From Flavobacteriales bacterium (lineage in GTDB: Bacteria; Bacteroidota; Bacteroidia; Flavobacteriales_D; Sanyastnellaceae): a stretch of 52,987 nt of DNA. The stretch lies in NCBI GenBank assembly GCA_002863125.1, contig PKEB01000001.1:1-52987 (forward strand). Reading direction: 5' to 3'. Both the position numbers and the translations under genes were made by a program. This document shows, one piece after another, positions 2 through 52,987 of the stretch. The number at the start of each line of letters is the position of its first letter. The first letter of the stretch is position 1. The notes beneath the pieces were generated by a model. The model searched no databases. It saw only the letters and a list, made by a program, of their open reading frames with translations, and was not told the DNA's origin.

Positions 2-2443
2 GTCACGGCAGGAAGCACCTGGCAGGTAACGGGTCCGCTCGATTACTCGTTCGGTAACTACAAAATCCAGCCACGCTCTGAAGCAGACGCTTTGTTGTAC
101 GGTTGCACCAGTGCGGATGCTTCAAACTACAACGCGGGTGCTGGCATCGACGACGGTTCTTGTGAATTCTCGGGCGAGTCCTGCGGTATCTTCTTCTCAG
201 AGTACGCTGAAGGCAGTGGATACAACAAATACCTCGAGTTGTACAACCCAACGTCTACGACGGTTTTCTTGAGCCAATTCATCATGGGCAACTGCAGCAA
301 TGGTTGCGATACCCCTGATGCGCCCAACGTGAGTGATCAGTTTGACTACTTCACATTCAACTTCCCATTCGATGCAGAGATTGCACCGGGTGGAACGTAC
401 ATCGTAGCACACCCACAATCAGACTCCACCATTCTGGCAGCCGCCGACATTACGTACACATACTTGTCCAACGGAGATGATACATACGGCCTCTTCGAAT
501 TGGCGGGTGGTGATACAATCATGGTCGACATCATCGGAACCATCGGTCCAGACCCAGGTTCGGGATGGGACGTGGCCGGTGTAGCCAACGCGACCAAGGA
601 CCACACGCTCGTGCGAAACGAATTCGTTTTCACGGGTAACGGTGGTGACTGGGCGATGTCTGCAGGTACCAACGCCTTGGATTCCGAGTGGATTGTACTC
701 GACCAGAACGATTGGAGTGACTTGGGCATGCACACCTTCTCAGGTTCTTGCGCGGCCTCGACCGGGGGTTGCACCGATCCGTTCGCAGTCAACTACGATG
801 AGAATGCAACATCGGATGATGGTTCATGCATCTACATCGCGAACTACACGATTCAGGAGATTCAGTCAGGCGGTTTGAGCGGTCAAATGCAAACGCAAGG
901 GATTGTGACGGCGACCTACCCTCCAACGGGTGGATTGGCCGGCCAGGCTTCCTATGTCATCCAAGACGGCACAGGGCCCAACTCAGCCATCTGGGTCATC
1001 GGTGACGGCGTGGCCCTCGGTGACGAAGTGTCCATCTTGGGTAACGTGACTGAAGTGTACGGCTTGCGCCAGATTCAAGCGGCCACACCTGAAGTCCTGT
1101 CTTCGGGCAACGCATTGCCGGCAGCTGAAATGCTCGCGACCGCAGCCATTAACGATGAGCAATGGGAGTGCGTACTCATCAGCATGACCGGTGAGTGCAC
1201 CAATGCCGACGCCGGTTACGGCGAGTGGCACCTGAACGACGGTTCAGGCATCGGTACCATTGATGACATCGGATACGACGCCATCGGGGATTCACTGACT
1301 GCTGACGGCGGCAATACGTATGCACCGCTTTTGGAAGAAGGACGTTCGTACCGCGTGGTCGGACCCAACTTCTACTCATACGGCGCCTGGAAGTTGTTGC
1401 CACGTGACGCAGCGGATGTTGTTCGTTTGGGTTGCACCACGGCCTCGTTCAGCAACTACGATCCGTACGCGCAAGAAGACGACGGTTCATGCGTGGATGC
1501 ACCCGGTTGCACGGACCCAGCTGCAGACAACTACGATCCTGCTGCAACCTTGGATGATGGTTCGTGCATCATCAGCGGTTGCGATGATCCAGCGGCATTC
1601 AACTACCAGGAAGGCGTAAACAACCCCACCAACGAGGATTGCTACTACACGCTGCCCAACTTGGTCATCAACGAGATCCACTACAACCCCTGCAGTGCGC
1701 AAGGCGATGATTTCGACTACGAGTTTGTCGAGATCTACAACGGCGGCGACATGCCAGCAGAGATTGGTGGTTTCGAGTTCTACAACACGGCAAGTGGAGC
1801 ACCACAGCTCGGGTACGTCTTCCCTGAAGGCACATCAATCGCAGCCGGCGAATTCGTTTTGATGACGGTATCTGATGCGGGTACGGCCAACTACAGCGGT
1901 TTGGGTGTTCAGATTTTCCAATTGGAACTGGGCAACTTCTCCAACTCCGGTGAAGCGGTTAGCATCGAGGACGGCTTCGGTAACGTTGTTGATGCGGTGA
2001 CCTATGACGACGCCGATCCATGGCCAGCACAGACGGTTGCCGTATTGGGCAATGTCTTGGTGCAGAGTCCCGATGGTGGATGCTCAACGTTGGAATTGAT
2101 CCAAACGGATCTGAACAACGAAGATCCAGACAACTGGCAAGCCAGCTGGGTGGATAACGGCACCCCAGGTGCGCCAAACTCTTCGGCCTTCGGATGTGTA
2201 GATGCTGCAGCATGCAACTTCGCTTCAGGTGCGTTCTTCGACGACGGTTCTTGCACGTACGACTGCTACGGCTGTACGTACGCGGACGCGACCAACTACG
2301 ACGCAGCGGCGACCATGGAAAACGGAACGTGTGAATTCGACTTTACCGATCCGTGTCCTGCGGATGTTAACGAGGACGGTCAAGTCGGTACGCCTGACTT
2401 GCTCTTCTTCCTGTCCCAATTCGGTTCGGATTGCCCTGAGTAA
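2..2443 (+). CDS. Large secreted Cys-repeat / lamin-tail / OB-fold surface protein (5' end outside window)
   Basis: The frame is open to the left edge, so this is the C-terminal part of a larger protein; the TTG at 92 is not a credible start. The modules in order are: the tail of an OB-fold-like module (2-100), a Cys repeat (101-163), a lamin-tail-like domain (about 180-430, with FFSEYAEGS and YLELYNPT), a Cys repeat (767-829), a full OB-fold-like module (about 840-1429), three Cys repeats (1430-1642), a second lamin-tail-like domain (about 1655-2000, with LVINEIHYNP and EFVEIYNGG), and two more Cys repeats (2192-2332). It ends in one dockerin-like EF-hand half, DVNEDGQVGTPDLL, bracketed by Cys. 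Lamin-tail plus OB-fold combinations are known from secreted Bacteroidota proteins, some of them nucleases, but no catalytic domain is visible here. The protein is probably extracellular and calcium-binding. The function is unknown and no classical type IX sorting domain is seen. Confidence 0.85.
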   Translation, partial: VTAGSTWQVTGPLDYSFGNYKIQPRSEADALLYGCTSADASNYNAGAGIDDGSCEFSGESCGIFFSEYAEGSGYNKYLELYNPTSTTVFLSQFIMGNCSNGCDTPDAPNVSDQFDYFTFNFPFDAEIAPGGTYIVAHPQSDSTILAAADITYTYLSNGDDTYGLFELAGGDTIMVDIIGTIGPDPGSGWDVAGVANATKDHTLVRNEFVFTGNGGDWAMSAGTNALDSEWIVLDQNDWSDLGMHTFSGSCAASTGGCTDPFAVNYDENATSDDGSCIYIANYTIQEIQSGGLSGQMQTQGIVTATYPPTGGLAGQASYVIQDGTGPNSAIWVIGDGVALGDEVSILGNVTEVYGLRQIQAATPEVLSSGNALPAAEMLATAAINDEQWECVLISMTGECTNADAGYGEWHLNDGSGIGTIDDIGYDAIGDSLTADGGNTYAPLLEEGRSYRVVGPNFYSYGAWKLLPRDAADVVRLGCTTASFSNYDPYAQEDDGSCVDAPGCTDPAADNYDPAATLDDGSCIISGCDDPAAFNYQEGVNNPTNEDCYYTLPNLVINEIHYNPCSAQGDDFDYEFVEIYNGGDMPAEIGGFEFYNTASGAPQLGYVFPEGTSIAAGEFVLMTVSDAGTANYSGLGVQIFQLELGNFSNSGEAVSIEDGFGNVVDAVTYDDADPWPAQTVAVLGNVLVQSPDGGCSTLELIQTDLNNEDPDNWQASWVDNGTPGAPNSSAFGCVDAAACNFASGAFFDDGSCTYDCYGCTYADATNYDAAATMENGTCEFDFTDPCPADVNEDGQVGTPDLLFFLSQFGSDCPE
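101..2332 (+). repeat. Seven GCTDPxAxNY...DDGSC Cys repeats in the left-edge protein
   Basis: Copies of about 63 bp lie at 101-163, 767-829, 1430-1492, 1505-1567, 1577-1642 (divergent), 2192-2254 and 2270-2332. Each encodes G-C near the start, N-Y in the middle, and a D-D-G-S-C or similar ending. The acidic residues and paired Cys suggest a small calcium-binding or disulfide-bonded linker between larger modules. The same repeat occurs in the gene at the right edge. Confidence 0.85.
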
Positions 2444-45771: not shown

Positions 45772-46419
45772 TTAAATATTCAAATCAAGGGTGTAATCCG
45801 GGTTGATGAAATCCGCTGACCGGTCGTTTGAGCAGACGATTAAGGTCGTTTTTCCTCGGACGGCTTGAACGGTTTCCCGGTACCAGGCAACACCGGAAGC
45901 ATCGAGGTTGGCACACGGTTCGTCCAATACGATCAATCCGGCTTGAGATGCCAAGGCCAGCGCCAATTTCACCCGCTGTTGCATCCCCGAACTCAAATCT
46001 CGGTAGGCGCTATGCATTTGGCTGTCAAGCCCTGCACGTTGGATGAGGTCTTGCGCTGCTGACGGAGAAGACCAAGGGAGAAATTGGCCCTGAAATGCGA
46101 TGAGTTCTTCGATGGTCAACTGGGGGTGCAACGCAGTTGCTGGGCTGATGCGTTGGCTGCGTGTGCAGAGAGCCTCGGCTTCCAGCTGTTGTGCTCCGCA
46201 GGACCAGGTCACGCTTCCTGTAGCAGGGGTCAACTCCCCTGACAGGATTCGCCCCAGCGTGGATTTGCCGCTTCCATTGGTTCCTCGGATGAGGCATTCG
46301 CTGCCCGCCTGTAATTGCAGCGATACGGGCTCAAAAACCGCGCGTGATTTGAAGGTGTGGGAGACCTCTTGCAGGTTCACTGCAATCCCCAAGTCAACTG
46401 AATCCGCGGCTGCAGTCAT
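45772..46419 (-). CDS. ABC transporter ATPase, orphan, in the lpx operon
   Basis: This 215-aa ATPase has Walker A GTNGSGKST at 46-54, the signature DLSSGMQQRVKLALAL, and Walker B GLIVLDEPCANLD; after the last strand, VCSNDRS stands in the switch position where a His is usual. The sequence is short and shows no membrane segments, so a permease partner is needed, but none is adjacent. It starts at the last base of the lpxA stop (TAATG), so it is coupled to lipid A genes. This invites a role in moving a lipid or envelope precursor, which is inference only. Confidence 0.85.
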   Translation of the reverse strand: MTAAADSVDLGIAVNLQEVSHTFKSRAVFEPVSLQLQAGSECLIRGTNGSGKSTLGRILSGELTPATGSVTWSCGAQQLEAEALCTRSQRISPATALHPQLTIEELIAFQGQFLPWSSPSAAQDLIQRAGLDSQMHSAYRDLSSGMQQRVKLALALASQAGLIVLDEPCANLDASGVAWYRETVQAVRGKTTLIVCSNDRSADFINPDYTLDLNI

Positions 46420-47213
46420 TAGAACGGCCCGCGGATGATGCCCTTGTCGGAGGCTTGGATGAAAGCGAGGATGGTGTCTCTTTCGCTGGATTGTGGCAAC
46501 TCGGTTTCTGCCACACGCAACGCTTGGGAGAGGTTCGTGTTCTGTACGTAAAGCGTGCGGTAAATGTCCTCGATGTTGATGACTTGGTCGTTATTGAAGC
46601 CACGCCTCCGCAATCCGATGCTATTGACCCCGATAAAAGACAAGGGCTCACGCGCTGCTTTGATGAATGGCGGAACGTTCTTTCGGACCAACGAACCGCC
46701 AGCAATAAAGGCGTGTTGGCCGATGGTGACAAATTGCTGCACTCCGACCATGCCCTCGACGATGGCCCAATCTTCGATGGTAACGTGCCCGGCGATGTTG
46801 CCCGAGTTGGCAATGATGACGTGGTCGCCGATGAGCACATCGTGCGCGAGGTGGCAATAGGCCATCAACAAGCAATCCGAACCCACCTTCGTGACCATGC
46901 GGTCCTCGGTGCCGCGGTTGATGGTTACGCACTCCCGTATGACGGTTCGATCCCCAATCTCGACAGTAGATGCTTCGCCCGCGAATTTCAAATCTTGTGG
47001 CACGGCGCCGACGACGGCACCGGAAAACACCTTGCACGCATCGCCCAGTTTGGTTTGGCTGTGGATGACCGCGTGTGGACCAATCCAGCAGTTTGCGCCA
47101 ATGATTACGTTGCCTTCAATGAAAGCAAACGGTTCAATCACCGTCCCTGCACCGATGGTGGCATCGGGTGAGACGTAGGCCTGAGGAGAGATGTGTGCGG
47201 CAGGTGTGCTCAT
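46419..47213 (-). CDS. lpxA: UDP-N-acetylglucosamine acyltransferase
   Basis: LpxA adds the first acyl chain to UDP-GlcNAc in lipid A synthesis. This 264-aa protein is a left-handed beta-helix of hexapeptide repeats, with ISPQAYVSPDATIGAGTVIEP and GANCWIGPHAVIH. The catalytic His is in AHDVLIGDHV (His124), followed by VTIEDWAIVEGMVGVQQFVTIG. The C-terminal helical part ends GIIRGPF. It overlaps the lpxC-fabZ stop by 4 bases (ATGA). Confidence 0.96.
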   Translation of the reverse strand: MSTPAAHISPQAYVSPDATIGAGTVIEPFAFIEGNVIIGANCWIGPHAVIHSQTKLGDACKVFSGAVVGAVPQDLKFAGEASTVEIGDRTVIRECVTINRGTEDRMVTKVGSDCLLMAYCHLAHDVLIGDHVIIANSGNIAGHVTIEDWAIVEGMVGVQQFVTIGQHAFIAGGSLVRKNVPPFIKAAREPLSFIGVNSIGLRRRGFNNDQVINIEDIYRTLYVQNTNLSQALRVAETELPQSSERDTILAFIQASDKGIIRGPF

Positions 47214-48613
47214 CGGTCTTTGACGATCTGTGCGAGCATTTCTGCTTCTGAGACGAGGTTGCCTTGAACGTATCCCCGTCCCCGCATGTTGACCAGTCCT
47301 CGTCGAATGGGAGAAATAAGTTCGAGATGAAATACGATGGTGTCGCCTGGGATGACTTTTTGCTTGAATTTGACGTTGTCAATTTTCATGAAATATGTCG
47401 TGTAATTCTCGGGCTCGTCAACGGTTTGCAGCGCAAAAATGCCTCCGACTTGCGCCATGGCTTCCACTTGCAAAACACCGGGCATTACTGGATTGTCTGG
47501 GAAGTGTCCTTGGAAAAAGGGCTCGTTTACGGTGACGTTTTTGCACCCCACGATGCTGGTGTCGTCCACTTCGAAAATTTTGTCGACCAGAAGGAAGGGG
47601 TACCTGTGCGGCAGCATTCCTGCGATCTGGTTGATGTCGAAGAGGGAGGGACGGTTGGTGTCCAAGTTGGGTTTTCCGAGTTCTTCTTTCATCTTTTTCT
47701 TCAATATTTTGGCAAACGACACGTTGCCAGCGTGTCCTGGACGGGCAGCTAGGATGTGGGCTTGAATAAATTTTCCAGTGAGGGCCAAGTCGCCCATGAT
47801 GTCCAAAAGCTTGTGGCGAGCGGGTTCGTTTTGATAACGCAAAGGCGAGGTATTCAATACCCCGGGCACATCCGCTTGTGCGTGCAGCCTTTGCTTGCCC
47901 AGCAAATCTGCAATTTCCTGCAACTCCGTTTCTGCATATGGGCGCTCAATCAGGACGACTGCGTTGTTCAGGTCGCCGCCTTTTATCAAGTTCGATTGGG
48001 CCAGCGCCTTCACCTCCTTCAGGAACACAAACGTTCGGCATTTCGCGATGTCTTCTTTGAAATCCTGCAGTTTGTGCATGCTCGCGTGCTGTGTGCCGAG
48101 CACGGGGCTGCGGTAATCCACCATCACGGTGAGCCGGAATTCGTCGTTCGGCTCTGGAACGGCGAGCATCTCAACTTCTTTTTCCTTGTCCTCGAACGCG
48201 ATGTTCCTCCGCAATTTGAAACAGACCCGCGGCGCCTCTTGTTCCGTGTAGCCTGCGCCTTCAAAGGCATCGACAAAAGCCTGAGCACTACCGTCCATGA
48301 TCGGGATTTCGGGGCCGGTCAGTTGAATCAGCGCATTGTCTACCTCACAACCGTACAATGCTGCTAAGATGTGTTCGGTGGTGTGCACTTGCACACCGTT
48401 TTGCTCCAACGTTGTTCCGCGTTGCGTTCCGACTACGAGGTCCGCATCGGCATTGATGATGGGTTGTTCCGGAAGGTCAATCCGTTGGAACTTGTAGCCG
48501 TGGTTGTCCGGAGCCGGCAGAACCGTCATGACCGTGGTTTCCCCTGTATGAAGGCCGATTCCAGAGAATTCAACGGGCGCACTTAGGGTGCGTTGCAATA
48601 CGGTTTTAGCCAT
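47210..48613 (-). CDS. lpxC/fabZ: Bifunctional LpxC deacetylase / FabZ dehydratase
   Basis: This 467-aa fusion is typical of Bacteroidota. Residues 1 to about 312 are LpxC, the committed zinc deacetylase of lipid A synthesis, with VHTTEHILAAL (Glu80, His81), the zinc and catalytic set RHKLLDIMGDLALTG (His267, Asp271, Asp275) and GHAGN (His294). Residues about 321-467 are FabZ, the 3-hydroxyacyl-ACP dehydratase, with LPHRYPFLLVDKI (His336) and VMPGVLQVEAMAQVGG (Glu384). Fusion ties lipid A and fatty-acid supply. lpxD is 5 bp upstream and lpxA overlaps downstream. Confidence 0.97.
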   Translation of the reverse strand: MAKTVLQRTLSAPVEFSGIGLHTGETTVMTVLPAPDNHGYKFQRIDLPEQPIINADADLVVGTQRGTTLEQNGVQVHTTEHILAALYGCEVDNALIQLTGPEIPIMDGSAQAFVDAFEGAGYTEQEAPRVCFKLRRNIAFEDKEKEVEMLAVPEPNDEFRLTVMVDYRSPVLGTQHASMHKLQDFKEDIAKCRTFVFLKEVKALAQSNLIKGGDLNNAVVLIERPYAETELQEIADLLGKQRLHAQADVPGVLNTSPLRYQNEPARHKLLDIMGDLALTGKFIQAHILAARPGHAGNVSFAKILKKKMKEELGKPNLDTNRPSLFDINQIAGMLPHRYPFLLVDKIFEVDDTSIVGCKNVTVNEPFFQGHFPDNPVMPGVLQVEAMAQVGGIFALQTVDEPENYTTYFMKIDNVKFKQKVIPGDTIVFHLELISPIRRGLVNMRGRGYVQGNLVSEAEMLAQIVKDR

Positions 48614-48618
48614 TCGCC

Positions 48619-49653
48619 TCAGCTCAGTTTTTGTTCCAGTGCGTCAATGCGGTCCAAAACTAAGGCGCGAATCAATTTCCGCAACGCGATTTGCTGAGAT
48701 TGGTAAGCCTTGATTGGCTGTGCAGGTGTCCCCTGCCAAACGCTATTTGGCTCGGTAATGCTCCTGGAAATGCCCGATTGAGCGGCGATTTTGACACCGT
48801 CTGCGACGGAGATGTGACCGGCAAATCCGACTTGCCCACCCACCATGCAGTTTGCTCCGATGGTTGTGCTTCCGGCAATGCCAGTCTGTGCGGCAATGAC
48901 CGTGTTGGCGCCAATTTTCACGTTGTGGGCAATCTGAATCTGGTTGTCCAATTTGACGCCGTCCTCAATCACGGTGGAACCGAGGGTGGCACGGTCGATG
49001 GTCGTAGCTGCTCCAATTTCGCATCCGTTTCCGATGGTAACGTTTCCCGTCTGGGGCACCTTGTCGTATTGGCCCGTGCTATTCGGCGCAAAGCCAAATC
49101 CATCTGAGCCAATCACGGCCCCGGCTTGGACGATGCAATCGCGGCCGATGGTGCAATCGTCAAGGATGGCGACCTGCCGGTGAACGGTGGTTCCCGAGCC
49201 GATGTGGACGCCACGTCCAATGCTTGCATGGCTGTGGATTTGGCAACCGGCTTCAATTTTCGCGCCGGCCTCCACAACGGCGAAAGGCCCGATGTAGCAA
49301 GATTCGTCCACTTCTGCCGTGGGGTCGACGTGTGCGTTCGGAGCAATGCCTGCGGGATGGACTTGGGAAGCGGCGGCCCATTGCAAGACCCCGGCAAATG
49401 CCGTGTAGGGGTCACGGACGCGAATGATGGCCAAGTGCTGCGGCAGATCCTGCGTCGGGGTAAAGTCTTCTGCCACTATGGCTGCACTGGCTCCTGTGGT
49501 ATAGATGAAGCCTTCATATTCTTTGTTCGCCAAAAACGTCAGGCTGCCTTTCCCGGCGTCTTCAATTTTTGCCACGCGATTCAGGGTCAAATCGGTTGGT
49601 CCCTCAATCGTCCCACCGATTCGGTCGGCCAAAGCTTTGGCGGTTAGTTCCAT
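48619..49653 (-). CDS. lpxD: UDP-3-O-(3-hydroxyacyl)glucosamine N-acyltransferase
   Basis: LpxD adds the second acyl chain in lipid A synthesis. This 344-aa protein has an N-terminal uridine-binding domain (VAKIEDAGKGSLTFLANKEYEG) and a hexapeptide beta-helix. The SDGFGFAP segment is diagnostic, as are KVPQTGNVTIGNGCEIGA, DRATLGSTVIEDGVKLDNQIQIAHN with the catalytic His, and the GQVGFAGH coil. A C-terminal helix follows. A near-consensus -7 element lies 4 nt before the ATG, so it may have its own leaderless promoter besides readthrough from aroB. Confidence 0.96.
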   Translation of the reverse strand: MELTAKALADRIGGTIEGPTDLTLNRVAKIEDAGKGSLTFLANKEYEGFIYTTGASAAIVAEDFTPTQDLPQHLAIIRVRDPYTAFAGVLQWAAASQVHPAGIAPNAHVDPTAEVDESCYIGPFAVVEAGAKIEAGCQIHSHASIGRGVHIGSGTTVHRQVAILDDCTIGRDCIVQAGAVIGSDGFGFAPNSTGQYDKVPQTGNVTIGNGCEIGAATTIDRATLGSTVIEDGVKLDNQIQIAHNVKIGANTVIAAQTGIAGSTTIGANCMVGGQVGFAGHISVADGVKIAAQSGISRSITEPNSVWQGTPAQPIKAYQSQQIALRKLIRALVLDRIDALEQKLS

Positions 49654-49657
49654 GGTG

Positions 49658-49665
49658 TAAAATTA
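49658..49665 (-). promoter_or_regulatory. Candidate -7 element of lpxD
   Basis: The minus strand reads TAATTTTA (one mismatch), 4 nt before the lpxD ATG. Confidence 0.35.
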
Positions 49666-49691
49666 AGGCAAGTGACTGTGTTTGTAATTGC

Positions 49692-50780
49692 TCAGAAGCC
49701 GCCATGTGCGCTGCTCCAACTGGTCCCGAACGCCGAACGAGACAGGAGTTGGTTCCATTCCGCCTGTCCAATGTCCGTGAGCCTCACTTCTTGAACGCCA
49801 TTTGCATCGTTTTTCTTGTCCTTTTCCATGAACACCCACAGGGCATCCAAGTCTGCTGCATGCACGGCAAGCTGGACATACCCAGGAACGGCGCGGGTCA
49901 GCCAACGCTTGATGCAATGTGCAGCGTCCACAAGCTCGCGTTGGATGCCGGGATCTGCTGTTTGATCCGCACTCCAGTGGAGGGAAACCATCATGCCCAG
50001 ACCGACTGCGATTCCGTGCGGAAGGTTTTCACTTCGGGATGCCGCGGCGCTCTCGAGCGCATGGCCGACCGTGTGCCCAAAATTCAACGTTTTTCGGAGT
50101 CCGGATTCGAACTCGTCTGCCTCGACCAGTCGTTTTTTGATGTCCGCAGCGTCGCGTATGAGGGTATGCACGGTCTTTGTTGGCGGGATGGTTTCGAATT
50201 GCTTCATGGAATGCCACAGCGCCGGATCCGCAATGATTGCGTGCTTTGCCATTTCCATCCAACCATTGAGAACATCGACGGCCTCCAAGCTCTCGAAGAC
50301 GCGAAAATCCGATACCACGAAATCGGGTTGGGTTATGGTTCCAACATAGTTCTTGAACCCCATAAAATTGACTCCATTTTTGCCGCCAATCCCCGCGTCC
50401 ACGGCAGCGAGAAGCGTTGTGGGCAGTGACCATTTCTGTACGCCGCGTTGGTAGATGGAAGCGGCAAAAAGCCCGGCATCCAGAACGGTTCCGCCACCGA
50501 TTACGGCAACACTTTGTTGGCGATTGGCGTTGTTTTGTGTGAGCCAGGCCAGGATGTTTTCCACCTCGGTCAACGTCTTGCTCAACTCCCCAGCTTTCAG
50601 CCAGTACACCCGCCCTTGGGCATGTACCTCCTCAATCCATGGAATGTTGTTGTTATTCTGAAAAAAATCATCGACGATGTACCAATCCGGCGGCGCTTGA
50701 TCAGCGGTATGCCAGGCATCCTCAAAGGCTCCCTTTGTGGATCCTGCGGGAATGGAAATGTATGTGGGTTGCGGGTGCAT
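49692..50780 (-). CDS. aroB: 3-dehydroquinate synthase
   Basis: AroB makes 3-dehydroquinate, the first ring of the shikimate pathway, with NAD and a metal ion. This 362-aa protein has the NAD-binding AVIGGGTVLDAGLFAAS, the LPTTLLAAVDAGIGGKNGVNF core, DFRVFESLEAVDVLNG, and the zinc-binding LNFGHTVGHALE followed by LPHGIAVGLGMM. The family also contains sugar cyclases (EVS and related), but the sequence fits AroB and no natural-product genes are near. It is the first gene of the lpx-linked transcript. TAATTTCG 20 nt upstream is the likely -7 element. Confidence 0.9.
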   Translation of the reverse strand: MHPQPTYISIPAGSTKGAFEDAWHTADQAPPDWYIVDDFFQNNNNIPWIEEVHAQGRVYWLKAGELSKTLTEVENILAWLTQNNANRQQSVAVIGGGTVLDAGLFAASIYQRGVQKWSLPTTLLAAVDAGIGGKNGVNFMGFKNYVGTITQPDFVVSDFRVFESLEAVDVLNGWMEMAKHAIIADPALWHSMKQFETIPPTKTVHTLIRDAADIKKRLVEADEFESGLRKTLNFGHTVGHALESAAASRSENLPHGIAVGLGMMVSLHWSADQTADPGIQRELVDAAHCIKRWLTRAVPGYVQLAVHAADLDALWVFMEKDKKNDANGVQEVRLTDIGQAEWNQLLSRSAFGTSWSSAHGGF

Positions 50781-50853: not shown

Positions 50854-50855
50854 TG

Positions 50856-50928
50856 TGGTACTACCGGGATTCGAACCTGGGACACACGGATTTTCAATCC
50901 GTTGCTCTACCAACTGAGCTATAGTACC
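50856..50928 (-). tRNA. tRNA-Phe (anticodon GAA)
   Basis: A 73-nt cloverleaf on the minus strand. The acceptor GGTACTA pairs with TAGTACC, the D stem is GCTC/GAGC, the anticodon stem ACGGA/TCCGT has loop TTGAAAA, and the T loop is TTCGAAT. Anticodon GAA reads Phe. CCA is not encoded. Confidence 0.97.
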
Positions 50929-50972: not shown

Positions 50973-51111
50973 CCTGCGGCTAAAATATTCGCAGCACAGG
51001 AGGAGCCAAAAGGAGGGTAAAATGCACAGATTAACGTTGCGTGAAATTTTCGCTTGAACTCACTTGTTATGCGATTAATGTTGAGAAAATTCAGATGAAC
51101 GCCCTTTTGTG

Positions 51112-51144
51112 ATTTGCAATTTGGTGCCTCTTCCGTTACATTCG
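51112..51144 (+). promoter_or_regulatory. Candidate promoter of the right-edge surface protein gene
   Basis: TTTG at 51112-51115, a 21-nt spacer and TACATTCG at 51137-51144 (one mismatch to TAnnTTTG). The start site would be near 51150, giving a leader of about 58 nt. The rest of the gap 50973-51111 shows nothing clear. Confidence 0.4.
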
Positions 51145-51150
51145 CTTCGT

Positions 51151-51175
51151 GCGCGTCGCGTGTGCACGCGTGCGC
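51151..51175 (+). promoter_or_regulatory. GC-rich hairpin at the predicted 5' end of the right-edge mRNA
   Basis: CGCGTG (51157-51162) pairs with CACGCG (51165-51170), and flanking GCGC segments (51151-51154 and 51172-51175) can extend it. It lies just after the predicted start site and 33 nt before the ATG. Confidence 0.4.
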
Positions 51176-51208
51176 CCTGTTGTTTGAACCAAATCAAATC
51201 GCCACCTC

Positions 51209-52987
51209 ATGCGAAAGCTGTTATGCCTTCTCGCTGCCTGCAGCGCAGCGTTTGTCGTTAGCTCACAAACCCCGGTAGAAATCCCCGGACCCAACGTCCC
51301 TCCTGGATATGAAATTTCCATTGAACCGTACATCGAACACGATGGCGTCGTAGGTGGAGTCGATTTCACGGGGCAAACGACGTACCGTTTGTACCTGGAG
51401 ATGCAGAATGAATCCGACTTCTTGTCGTGCATTTCTGGAGAGGCGGATAACCCGATGATGATTTACTCCACGTCGACCCCCGCTTGGTACAATGACGACG
51501 TGCTTGGCGAGGAAGTGGGGGCTTGGGTGAATCCTACGGTTCTGCCGTTTTTCCCCGAGTTGAATTATGACAGTTGGTTAACAATCGGTGGTGCGACAGC
51601 AGACGATGAGGTGGAAGTCAATTTTGCAGCCGGTGAAATCAACCTGTTGGATGAATTTGGTTCTGGCGAAAATGTATTGATTGACGATGTGATTGGCACA
51701 GCGCTGTTCACGTTGCTGCCATGTGATCCGGCCGATCTCGCTTCGTGTGATTTTACCCACGCGGCATTTGCGGGTGAGGATTTGCGGGTATTGATTGGTC
51801 AAATCACTACCGCAGGAGATTTGACGGGCCAGCTGCAGGTCCAGGTATTCGTTGAGGGCGATGCTGACCAAGAATTCCGGGGCATTATTCCCTTCACGCC
51901 CTACGCCCCCGAACTTTTGGTGGATGGATGTATCGATCCTACAGCCTGCAACTACGATGGGGAAGCCACAGCAGATGACGGATCTTGTGTCTACTGCGGA
52001 GCGGAATGCGCGGGGGGCTCAGATTACAGCATGACGGTCGAATTGCATGCGGAGGATGTCGTCGCGGGCCAGACGACGTACCGTTTCTACCAGAACATGA
52101 TCAATCCGGACGACTTCTTGAGTTCGGTGTACGGCAACGAGGACGTGCCATTCGTTTTTGAAACGACCACGGGCTTCTACAACAGCCAGTTCGGTGGTTC
52201 GGTCGCGAGCGCAATCAACCCTGCGTTCTTGTCGTTCTTCCCCGACCTCGCTGCTGACAGTTGGGTGACGATTGGCATCGAGAGCCAGAACGTAGGCGAC
52301 GAGGTAGCGATCAGCACGGTGGAAAGCACGGACCAACCTTGGGTTTCAGCCTTTGCCTTTGGCCAAGCGCTTTCCGGCCAAAACGTCTACATGAACGATG
52401 CGACCGGTGGCGCTTGGTACGTTTTGAACAACACCCCGAACGGGCTGCCCGATGCGGACGGCCGTGTGCTGTTCATGCAGGTCACCACGGCGGGTGAGAT
52501 TTCCGGAACCGTCAACCTCCAAATTTTCGAGAATGGCGTTGGATCGGAGTCCATCTATAATACGTATGACTTTGCTGGAACGGGTGACTTCTCCGTTGGA
52601 GGCGGCACCACATCCAATGCCTGCGGTTGTACAGACCCCGACGCCGACAACTACGACGATGCGGCGGAATACGACGACGGCAGCTGTGAATACGCAGTAC
52701 CAGGATGTACTGACGCGACGGCTTGTAACTACAATAACGACGCTACTGAGGACGATGGCTCCTGCACGTACGCTGAGACCGGTTACGACTGCGAAGGCAA
52801 CTGCTTGAATGACGCCGATGGCGACGGTGTATGCGACGAGTTTGAAGTGGCGGGCTGCACGGACGCAACAGCTTGTAACTACAACGCTGACGCAACCGAC
52901 GACGACGGCTCATGCCTCCAGCTCGACGAGTGCGGCGTATGCGGCGGTGACGGCATCGCCGACGGCGCCTGCGACTGTGATGGCAAC
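51209..52987 (+). CDS. Giant secreted Cys-repeat surface protein (3' end outside window)
   Basis: The frame is open from the ATG at 51209 to the window edge (593 codons, no stop). The signal peptide [20 protein letters not shown] is followed by module A (about 51308-51910), one Cys repeat (51926-51988), module B (about 52022-52610), then three Cys repeats with an acidic [12 protein letters not shown] insert and a [10 protein letters not shown] segment. Modules A and B are duplicated copies: both have GQTTYR near the start, a DFLS, a block ending in FFP(E/D)L...DSW(L/V)TIG, and a closing TTAG...GxVxLQIF-like strand. I do not recognise the module. The protein is probably exported and surface-exposed; any type IX sorting domain would be beyond the edge. 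Confidence 0.88.
51926..52915 (+). repeat. Four GCTDP...DDGSC Cys repeats in the right-edge protein
   Basis: Copies lie at 51926-51988, 52625-52687, 52703-52765 and 52853-52915. They match the repeats of the left-edge protein in length, Cys spacing and the NY/DDGSC core. Confidence 0.85.

Follow-up and report, generated by a model that had tools for sequence, protein, structure and literature searches.

An undescribed beta-sandwich domain repeated in large, apparently exported proteins of a Flavobacteriales family, with a C-terminal calcium-loop tail as its candidate partner

Cohesins and dockerins form the described system closest to the proteins analyzed here; a cohesin (PF00963) is a nine-stranded jelly-roll sandwich, and a dockerin (PF00404) consists of two calcium-loop repeats. 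Passages of PMC6071333 and PMC6030884 describe cellulosomes in which scaffoldins carry the cohesins and enzymes carry the dockerins, and cohesin and dockerin domains are reported from rumen Bacteroidetes in a passage of PMC6071333. That cellulose-degrading Bacteroidetes lack cohesin and dockerin parts is stated in passages of PMC5831590 and PMC6247017. Among the open-access matches listed, none mentions dockerin in a text that names the families related to our host; dockerin, cohesin, and Flavobacteriales occur together in PMC7071664, which deals with isopods, and in PMC12915301, where the context is a general remark on cellulosomes.

Several features of these systems recur in the proteins described below, namely repeated beta-sandwich modules in large proteins, some of which have surface anchors, enzymes that end in calcium-loop motifs, module proteins of which some end in the motif too, and a predicted overall fold that VIA-align aligns with cohesins at Z values of up to 6.0. 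The differences are the lack of a cohesin sequence match, Z values below 8, and calcium loops that are mostly single; relative to cellulosomes, the proteins carry type IX sorting domains and belong to an apparently marine planktonic lineage, not to anaerobic cellulose degraders. This ecology is presumed from record titles and general knowledge. The Als and MSCRAMM adhesins likewise present beta-sandwiches in surface proteins and align with Z values of 4.5-6.4 (Als, Ace, and collagen-adhesin rows), but no sequence relation to them was found, the anchors differ, and a stretch at residues 49-147 with a DSW-TIG motif sets the module apart. Interchangeable C-terminal anchors are a known theme, and one protein with the tail described below has a choice-of-anchor I domain; here, however, a candidate receptor domain is also proposed.

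The window, that is, the whole stretch of DNA analyzed, is the entire 52,987-bp contig C16 of a 35-contig, 2.27-Mb genome with a completeness of 98.7%. Its right edge holds an open reading frame (ORF) of 593 aa on the forward strand (51209..52987) that starts with ATG and is open at its 3' end; the ends of contigs C2, C17, and C21 of the same assembly likewise lie inside module genes, as does window position 52987. The frame begins with a putative N-terminal signal peptide (51209..51268, +), judged by eye from the translation, and continues with module A (51314..51901, +; profile A4, E=3e-51), a single Cys repeat of the form CIDPTACNY...DDGSC (51929..51988, +; regular expression on the translation), and module B (52028..52579, +; profile A4, E=2e-70), the two E-values not being independent, as both modules are rows of profile A4. 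A Cys/Asp-rich repeat array with three DDGSC units in hand, also detected by regular expression, then leaves the contig (52628..52987, +); it matches no Pfam family above cut-off, and Tandem Repeats Finder reported no array in 51000-52987. The contigs fetched with the orthologue from six relatives also stop within the gene; in four of them the break falls in the Cys arrays, and in the other two it falls in module B. We take these breaks as an assembly failure in near-identical repeats, and short-read assemblies probably under-count the module family. Upstream of the module gene lies a tRNA-Phe (GAA) on the reverse strand (50855-50928), and beyond it, at 46419-50780 (-), are genes that we take by eye to be lpxA, a fused lpxC/fabZ, lpxD, and dehydroquinate synthase, a set ordinary for Bacteroidota.

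The initial annotation had singled out two copies of a module joined by Cys repeats, and this repeat is real: the Smith-Waterman score of A against B is 225, with 2,000 shuffles giving a mean of 34.9, a standard deviation of 5.8, a maximum of 66, and no score that reaches 225. Of the aligned positions, 64 are identical, 81 are mismatched, and 30 are gaps; the motifs quoted for both copies sit at matching places in it, and Cys repeats are present between A and B and also after B. The accompanying proposal of an old duplication within the protein has to be abandoned. In a tree of 39 modules, comprising 29 of the 30 in the genome and both modules from each of five orthologues, a constrained topology that unites A and B with their orthologues in a single clade is rejected (AU p = 7.1e-5), which rules out a within-gene duplication as the source of the two copies. 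The A set forms one branch (support 100/100) and the B set another with weak support (45/24); copy B shares 62-63% identity with three modules on C2 and C21 and 41% with A. The order of A followed by B is the same in five orthologues of the genus. Judged from the tree, the gene joins two module lineages that had already diverged beforehand.

The genome contains 30 modules, A and B included, so the repeat is a family and not a pair. Searches with copy B and with copy A each returned 30 places (E<=1e-3 for copy B), and the profile placed 30 modules on the fetched stretches, in 15 ORFs of 220 to 2,979 aa from stop to stop. Identity of the paralogues to copy B ranges from 23 to 62%. Across 97 aligned modules, D79, G129, and Q153 (copy B numbering) are invariant and 20 further positions are conserved at 90% or above; of the anchor residues D, S, W, and F proposed earlier, D79 is thus invariant and S80, F111, and F169 reach at least 90%, but W81 does not. 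No family in Pfam, NCBIfam, or PHROGs is common to more than 1 of 29 modules, the whole protein is likewise without a family, and profiles of 29 and of 97 modules retrieved no solved relative from the PDB by sequence. Cohesin in particular gave no match to PF00963 in the genome at E<=1, is absent from the weak Pfam singles among the 29 modules, and reached a probability of 0.04 in hhalign, where the template was thin and consisted of 3 type I cohesins of similar sequence. Single-member matches (GspH at 9.5e-4, DUF7359, DUF7234, Invasin_D3, LtfC, and PHROG or NCBIfam singles) each come from one module of the 29, disagree with one another, and are attributed to chance. The first impression that no domain family could be recognized is borne out, no confident match to an existing family having emerged from the Pfam, NCBIfam, and PHROGs copies or the PDB. 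The segment is a beta-sandwich domain of about 180 residues from an undescribed family, repeated in large, apparently exported proteins of one Flavobacteriales family.

Within that host family (Sanyastnellaceae), the module occurs in 113 of 114 genomes and in all 21 genera, with 1 to 39 matches each, and within the genus in 22 of 22 genomes, with 11 to 39 matches each. At the level of the order, 153 of 399 genomes have it; the 40 outside the host family comprise 38 in family f2, with weak and partial matches, and one each in families f58 and f62. A sample of the phylum yielded 3 of 395, namely the genome itself, a second member of its family, and a member of f2. Named GTDB genomes scanned with two short peptide patterns gave 162 confirmed places, and the 76 loci drawn from the best 80 of these are titled Flavobacteriales, Crocinitomicaceae, Cryomorphaceae, Bacteroidetes, Bacteroidia, or "bacterium." Relatives are thus numerous in metagenome-assembled genomes of Bacteroidota, the initial annotation having named many matches in marine Bacteroidota without a Pfam family as a sign of a new domain; "marine" is a reading of isolate names. 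Phage and plasmid collections queried with copy B contained no module, and IMG/VR queried with copy A gave no match. A viral origin was also considered on account of one IMG/VR contig (L069) and rejected, as the similarity covers 13 residues around YDSW-TIG only, is not matched by the module profile at 1e-5, and is probably due to chance.

The module ORFs open with a signal-peptide-like stretch, which is followed by one to five modules, usually by Cys repeats, in some ORFs by SprB repeats or HYR domains, and then by the C-terminus. The first module lies no more than 85 residues from the frame start in every module ORF, and later spacing is wide and unequal. Among the 15 ORFs, four end in a type A and one in a type B sorting domain of the type IX secretion system (T9SS), five end in the tail described below, one has neither, and four are cut by contig ends, including the gene in the window, whose own C-terminus is missing. 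Sorting domains were sought with Pfam in all 15 ORFs and with NCBIfam in 7, of which 5 have TIGR04183 or TIGR04131 above cut-off; judged by a C-terminal sorting domain, 5 of the 15 module ORFs are T9SS cargo. The likeness to the type A and type B domains (TIGR04183 and TIGR04131) consists in this C-terminal position in 5 of the 15; they are a separate domain and not the module, and five other module ORFs have the tail instead.

The tail comprises about 30 residues that read roughly C-P-G-D-x-N-x-D-G-x(5)-D-L-L-x-F, between two cysteines, and in 10 aligned tails the C, the D, the D-L-L, and the last C are invariant. We liken the motif to one calcium loop of a dockerin, and the tail may accordingly be regarded as a putative calcium-binding element. 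Dockerin_1 (PF00404) has 8 matches in the genome, 2 of them above the Pfam cut-off, and leaves most tails unmatched at E<=0.1; the tail profile A5 finds 52 places in 41 ORFs (E<=0.05). A weak match at C11:47574 was not found again on a repeat profile search. In 37 of the 41 ORFs the tail stands 0-3 residues from the stop, and two adjacent copies are present in 10 of these 37, the other tails being single by profile. Loci from relatives contain 30 tailed ORFs that include their stop, and in 24 of these the tail lies 0-3 residues from the end. The window contains an example at its left edge, where an 813-aa ORF that is open at its 5' end (2-2440, +) combines LTD (lamin-tail) matches and Cys repeats with a calcium-loop, half-dockerin-like tail (2342..2437, +; profile A5, E=2.3e-12) that ends 1 residue before the stop. 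Elsewhere in the genome, locus L283 (C20:6200-17500) has four tail-ended ORFs in a row, of 1549, 589, 611, and 639 aa. Modules are present in 5 of the 37 tail-ended ORFs and absent from 32, and the latter include matches to GH81 (1), alpha-amylase (1), CBM48 (2), M12B (2) and M43 (1) peptidases, endonuclease I (1), Exo_endo_phos (1), LTD (3), FG-GAP (4), and UnbV (4); the left-edge protein of the window belongs to these 32.

Module and tail tend to occur in the same genomes. Of the 399 genomes of the order, 137 have both, 16 the module only, 4 the tail only, and 242 neither; outside the host family the corresponding numbers are 27, 13, 3, and 242, so that 13 of the 40 module-positive genomes there are without a tail match. 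Fisher p values of 2e-82 (all genomes) and 9e-25 (outside the host family) ignore ancestry and are not independent evidence, and the co-occurrence is confounded by ancestry because 151 of the 153 module-positive genomes belong to the host family or to f2. Mean module and tail counts of the 21 host-family genera correlate with a rho of 0.77, again with ancestry ignored and with upper values that stand for at least about 30 modules and at least about 19 tails. Genera g176 and g185 keep weak modules and have 0-2 tails.

Gene linkage adds to this picture. In four genomes of three other families (G062, G658, G418, and G438), the modules are clustered in regions that make up 0.3-0.6% of the genome, and each of the four clusters includes exactly one tail ORF. 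Three of these genomes (G062, G658, and G418) have one tail match each genome-wide at 1e-4, presumably the one in the cluster; G438 has no genome-wide match at 1e-4, and its tail is known from the cluster alone. The cluster tail proteins (L310:5208-7889, L312:85-1794, L313:3662-5329, and L315:7658-9241), of 528-894 aa, are mutually related, so the linkage may be one conserved event and not four. A tailed relative in the genome studied here (L285) is 28-31% identical over 529-583 columns to three of them and matches the fourth in two shorter pieces. By eye, all four appear beta-helix-like, and they are without a Pfam family. In the genome itself, a tail gene lies within 1, 2, and 5 kb of 4, 5, and 5 of the 15 module ORFs, where random placement gives 1.23, 1.57, and 2.36 and reaches the observed number in 141, 78, and 329 of 5,000 trials; adjacency is modest and is weaker at 5 kb.

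The initial annotation had also guessed at a beta-sandwich, and AlphaFold predicts one: the model of module B (52022-52600, built on the 97-module alignment) has a pLDDT of 97.1 and a pTM of 0.92. Between strand 4 and the strand at 148-156 runs a long stretch (residues 49-147) with a few short strands and helices, which carries the conserved YDSWVTIG. Foldseek against the PDB gave nothing at E<=1e-3, the best row being 4ei0 (DUF4466) at 1.1e-2, and a BFVD fold search likewise gave nothing at E<=1e-3. With VIA-align, the module of the window retrieves Candida Als9-2 and Als3 first (Z 6.4 and 6.0; 2y7l at Z 6.4, rmsd 3.5, 116 residues aligned), a BBSome chain third, and a cohesin fourth (5nrm, Z 5.8, rmsd 3.8, 122 aligned, below 8), with cohesins in 13 of the 50 best rows by our own count. 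For a second model, of a different natural protein, 35 of the 50 best rows are cohesins, the best at Z 6.0 (rmsd 3.7) and 5.9 with 119 and 120 residues aligned in chains of 141 and 143, these alignments extending into a stretch with pLDDT under 50. All Z values are below 8, in the range of common sandwiches, cohesins are abundant in the PDB, and Als and MSCRAMM rows tie with them. The predicted fold may be described as a candidate cohesin-like one by structure comparison, below significance and with no sequence relation found.

When these results are placed side by side, the reading that we favor is that the module would be the socket, and the tail the plug, of a docking system like that of cohesin and dockerin, a candidate pairing that we put forward tentatively and at a little short of an even chance. 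Module proteins would be exported and located at the cell surface, some of them anchored through their type IX secretion C-terminal domains, and their modules would capture enzymes and other proteins that end in the calcium-loop tail. Proteins without a T9SS domain could in this way be held on T9SS-anchored module proteins, and module proteins with a tail of their own would act as adaptor scaffolds. AlphaFold, when given one natural protein that contains both module and tail, predicted no confident arrangement (pTM 0.57, with the linker under 50). The pairing might be extended to a cellulosome-like surface assembly in uncultured, apparently marine Flavobacteriales, a picture that we consider rather doubtful, in which about 30 sockets per genome on T9SS-anchored and adaptor scaffolds would serve 30-40 presumably secreted, half-dockerin-tailed proteins, glycoside hydrolases and proteases included, all from parts with no detectable sequence relation to cohesin and with a simpler, one-tail cluster form in neighboring families.

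The module could instead be a surface adhesin domain that binds outside ligands such as algal polysaccharide or a host or particle surface, in the manner of Als and MSCRAMM proteins, with the tail unrelated to it and sharing its lineage only. The first structural rows, to Als9-2 and Als3, would agree with such a function, as would the repetition of modules together with SprB repeats, HYR domains, and T9SS anchors, and the strong divergence of the paralogues (23-62% to copy B) would suit varied ligands. This account, however, leaves unexplained both the tail gene that stands among module genes in three other families and the co-occurrence of module and tail outside the host family, and we regard it as conceivable but not probable.

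It is also conceivable that the tail directs sorting or anchoring from the C-terminus through an unrecognized export route parallel to the type IX C-terminal domains, with a separate function for the module and both merely belonging to the secretome of the lineage. The extreme C-terminal position in 37 of 41 ORFs and the many unrelated proteins that bear the tail, one of them with a choice-of-anchor I domain, fit a signal of this kind, and no T9SS domain appears among the 25 listed of 32 Pfam families in the 32 module-free tail proteins. Several observations nevertheless make it unlikely: the motif, which is duplicated in some ORFs, looks like a folded calcium loop, the tail sits among module genes in the four clusters, and beyond the host family 28 of the 30 tail-positive genomes yield one tail match each, which would be odd for a general signal. 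In addition, the match is internal in 3 of the 41 ORFs (L297, L305, and L309, with E-values of 1.0e-7, 1.5e-5, and 0.006 among them), where at least 147 residues of the fetched stretch follow it, an observation that bears more on a sorting signal than on docking.

A lineage-specific spread of the module as a stalk or spacer that binds nothing would agree with copy numbers of 11 to 39 across the genomes of the genus and with the shuffling of modules between genes but is very improbable, as the invariant D79, G129, and Q153 and the 20 positions conserved at 90% or above suggest a constrained core or site, and a first module close to the frame start followed by wide, unequal spacing is unlike a uniform stalk.

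Even without the pairing, an entry is warranted for a domain that matches in 113 of 114 genomes of a family and is missing from the searched copies of Pfam and NCBIfam. If the candidate pairing of module and tail is true, extracellular enzymes would be kept on the cell by a docking analogous to that of cellulosomes, built on type IX sorting domains and a receptor family of its own, and a testable role would fall to dozens of unannotated proteins in each genome. A new protein-pairing tool would be offered as well, and the finding would bear on how free-living bacteria avoid the loss of hydrolysis products.
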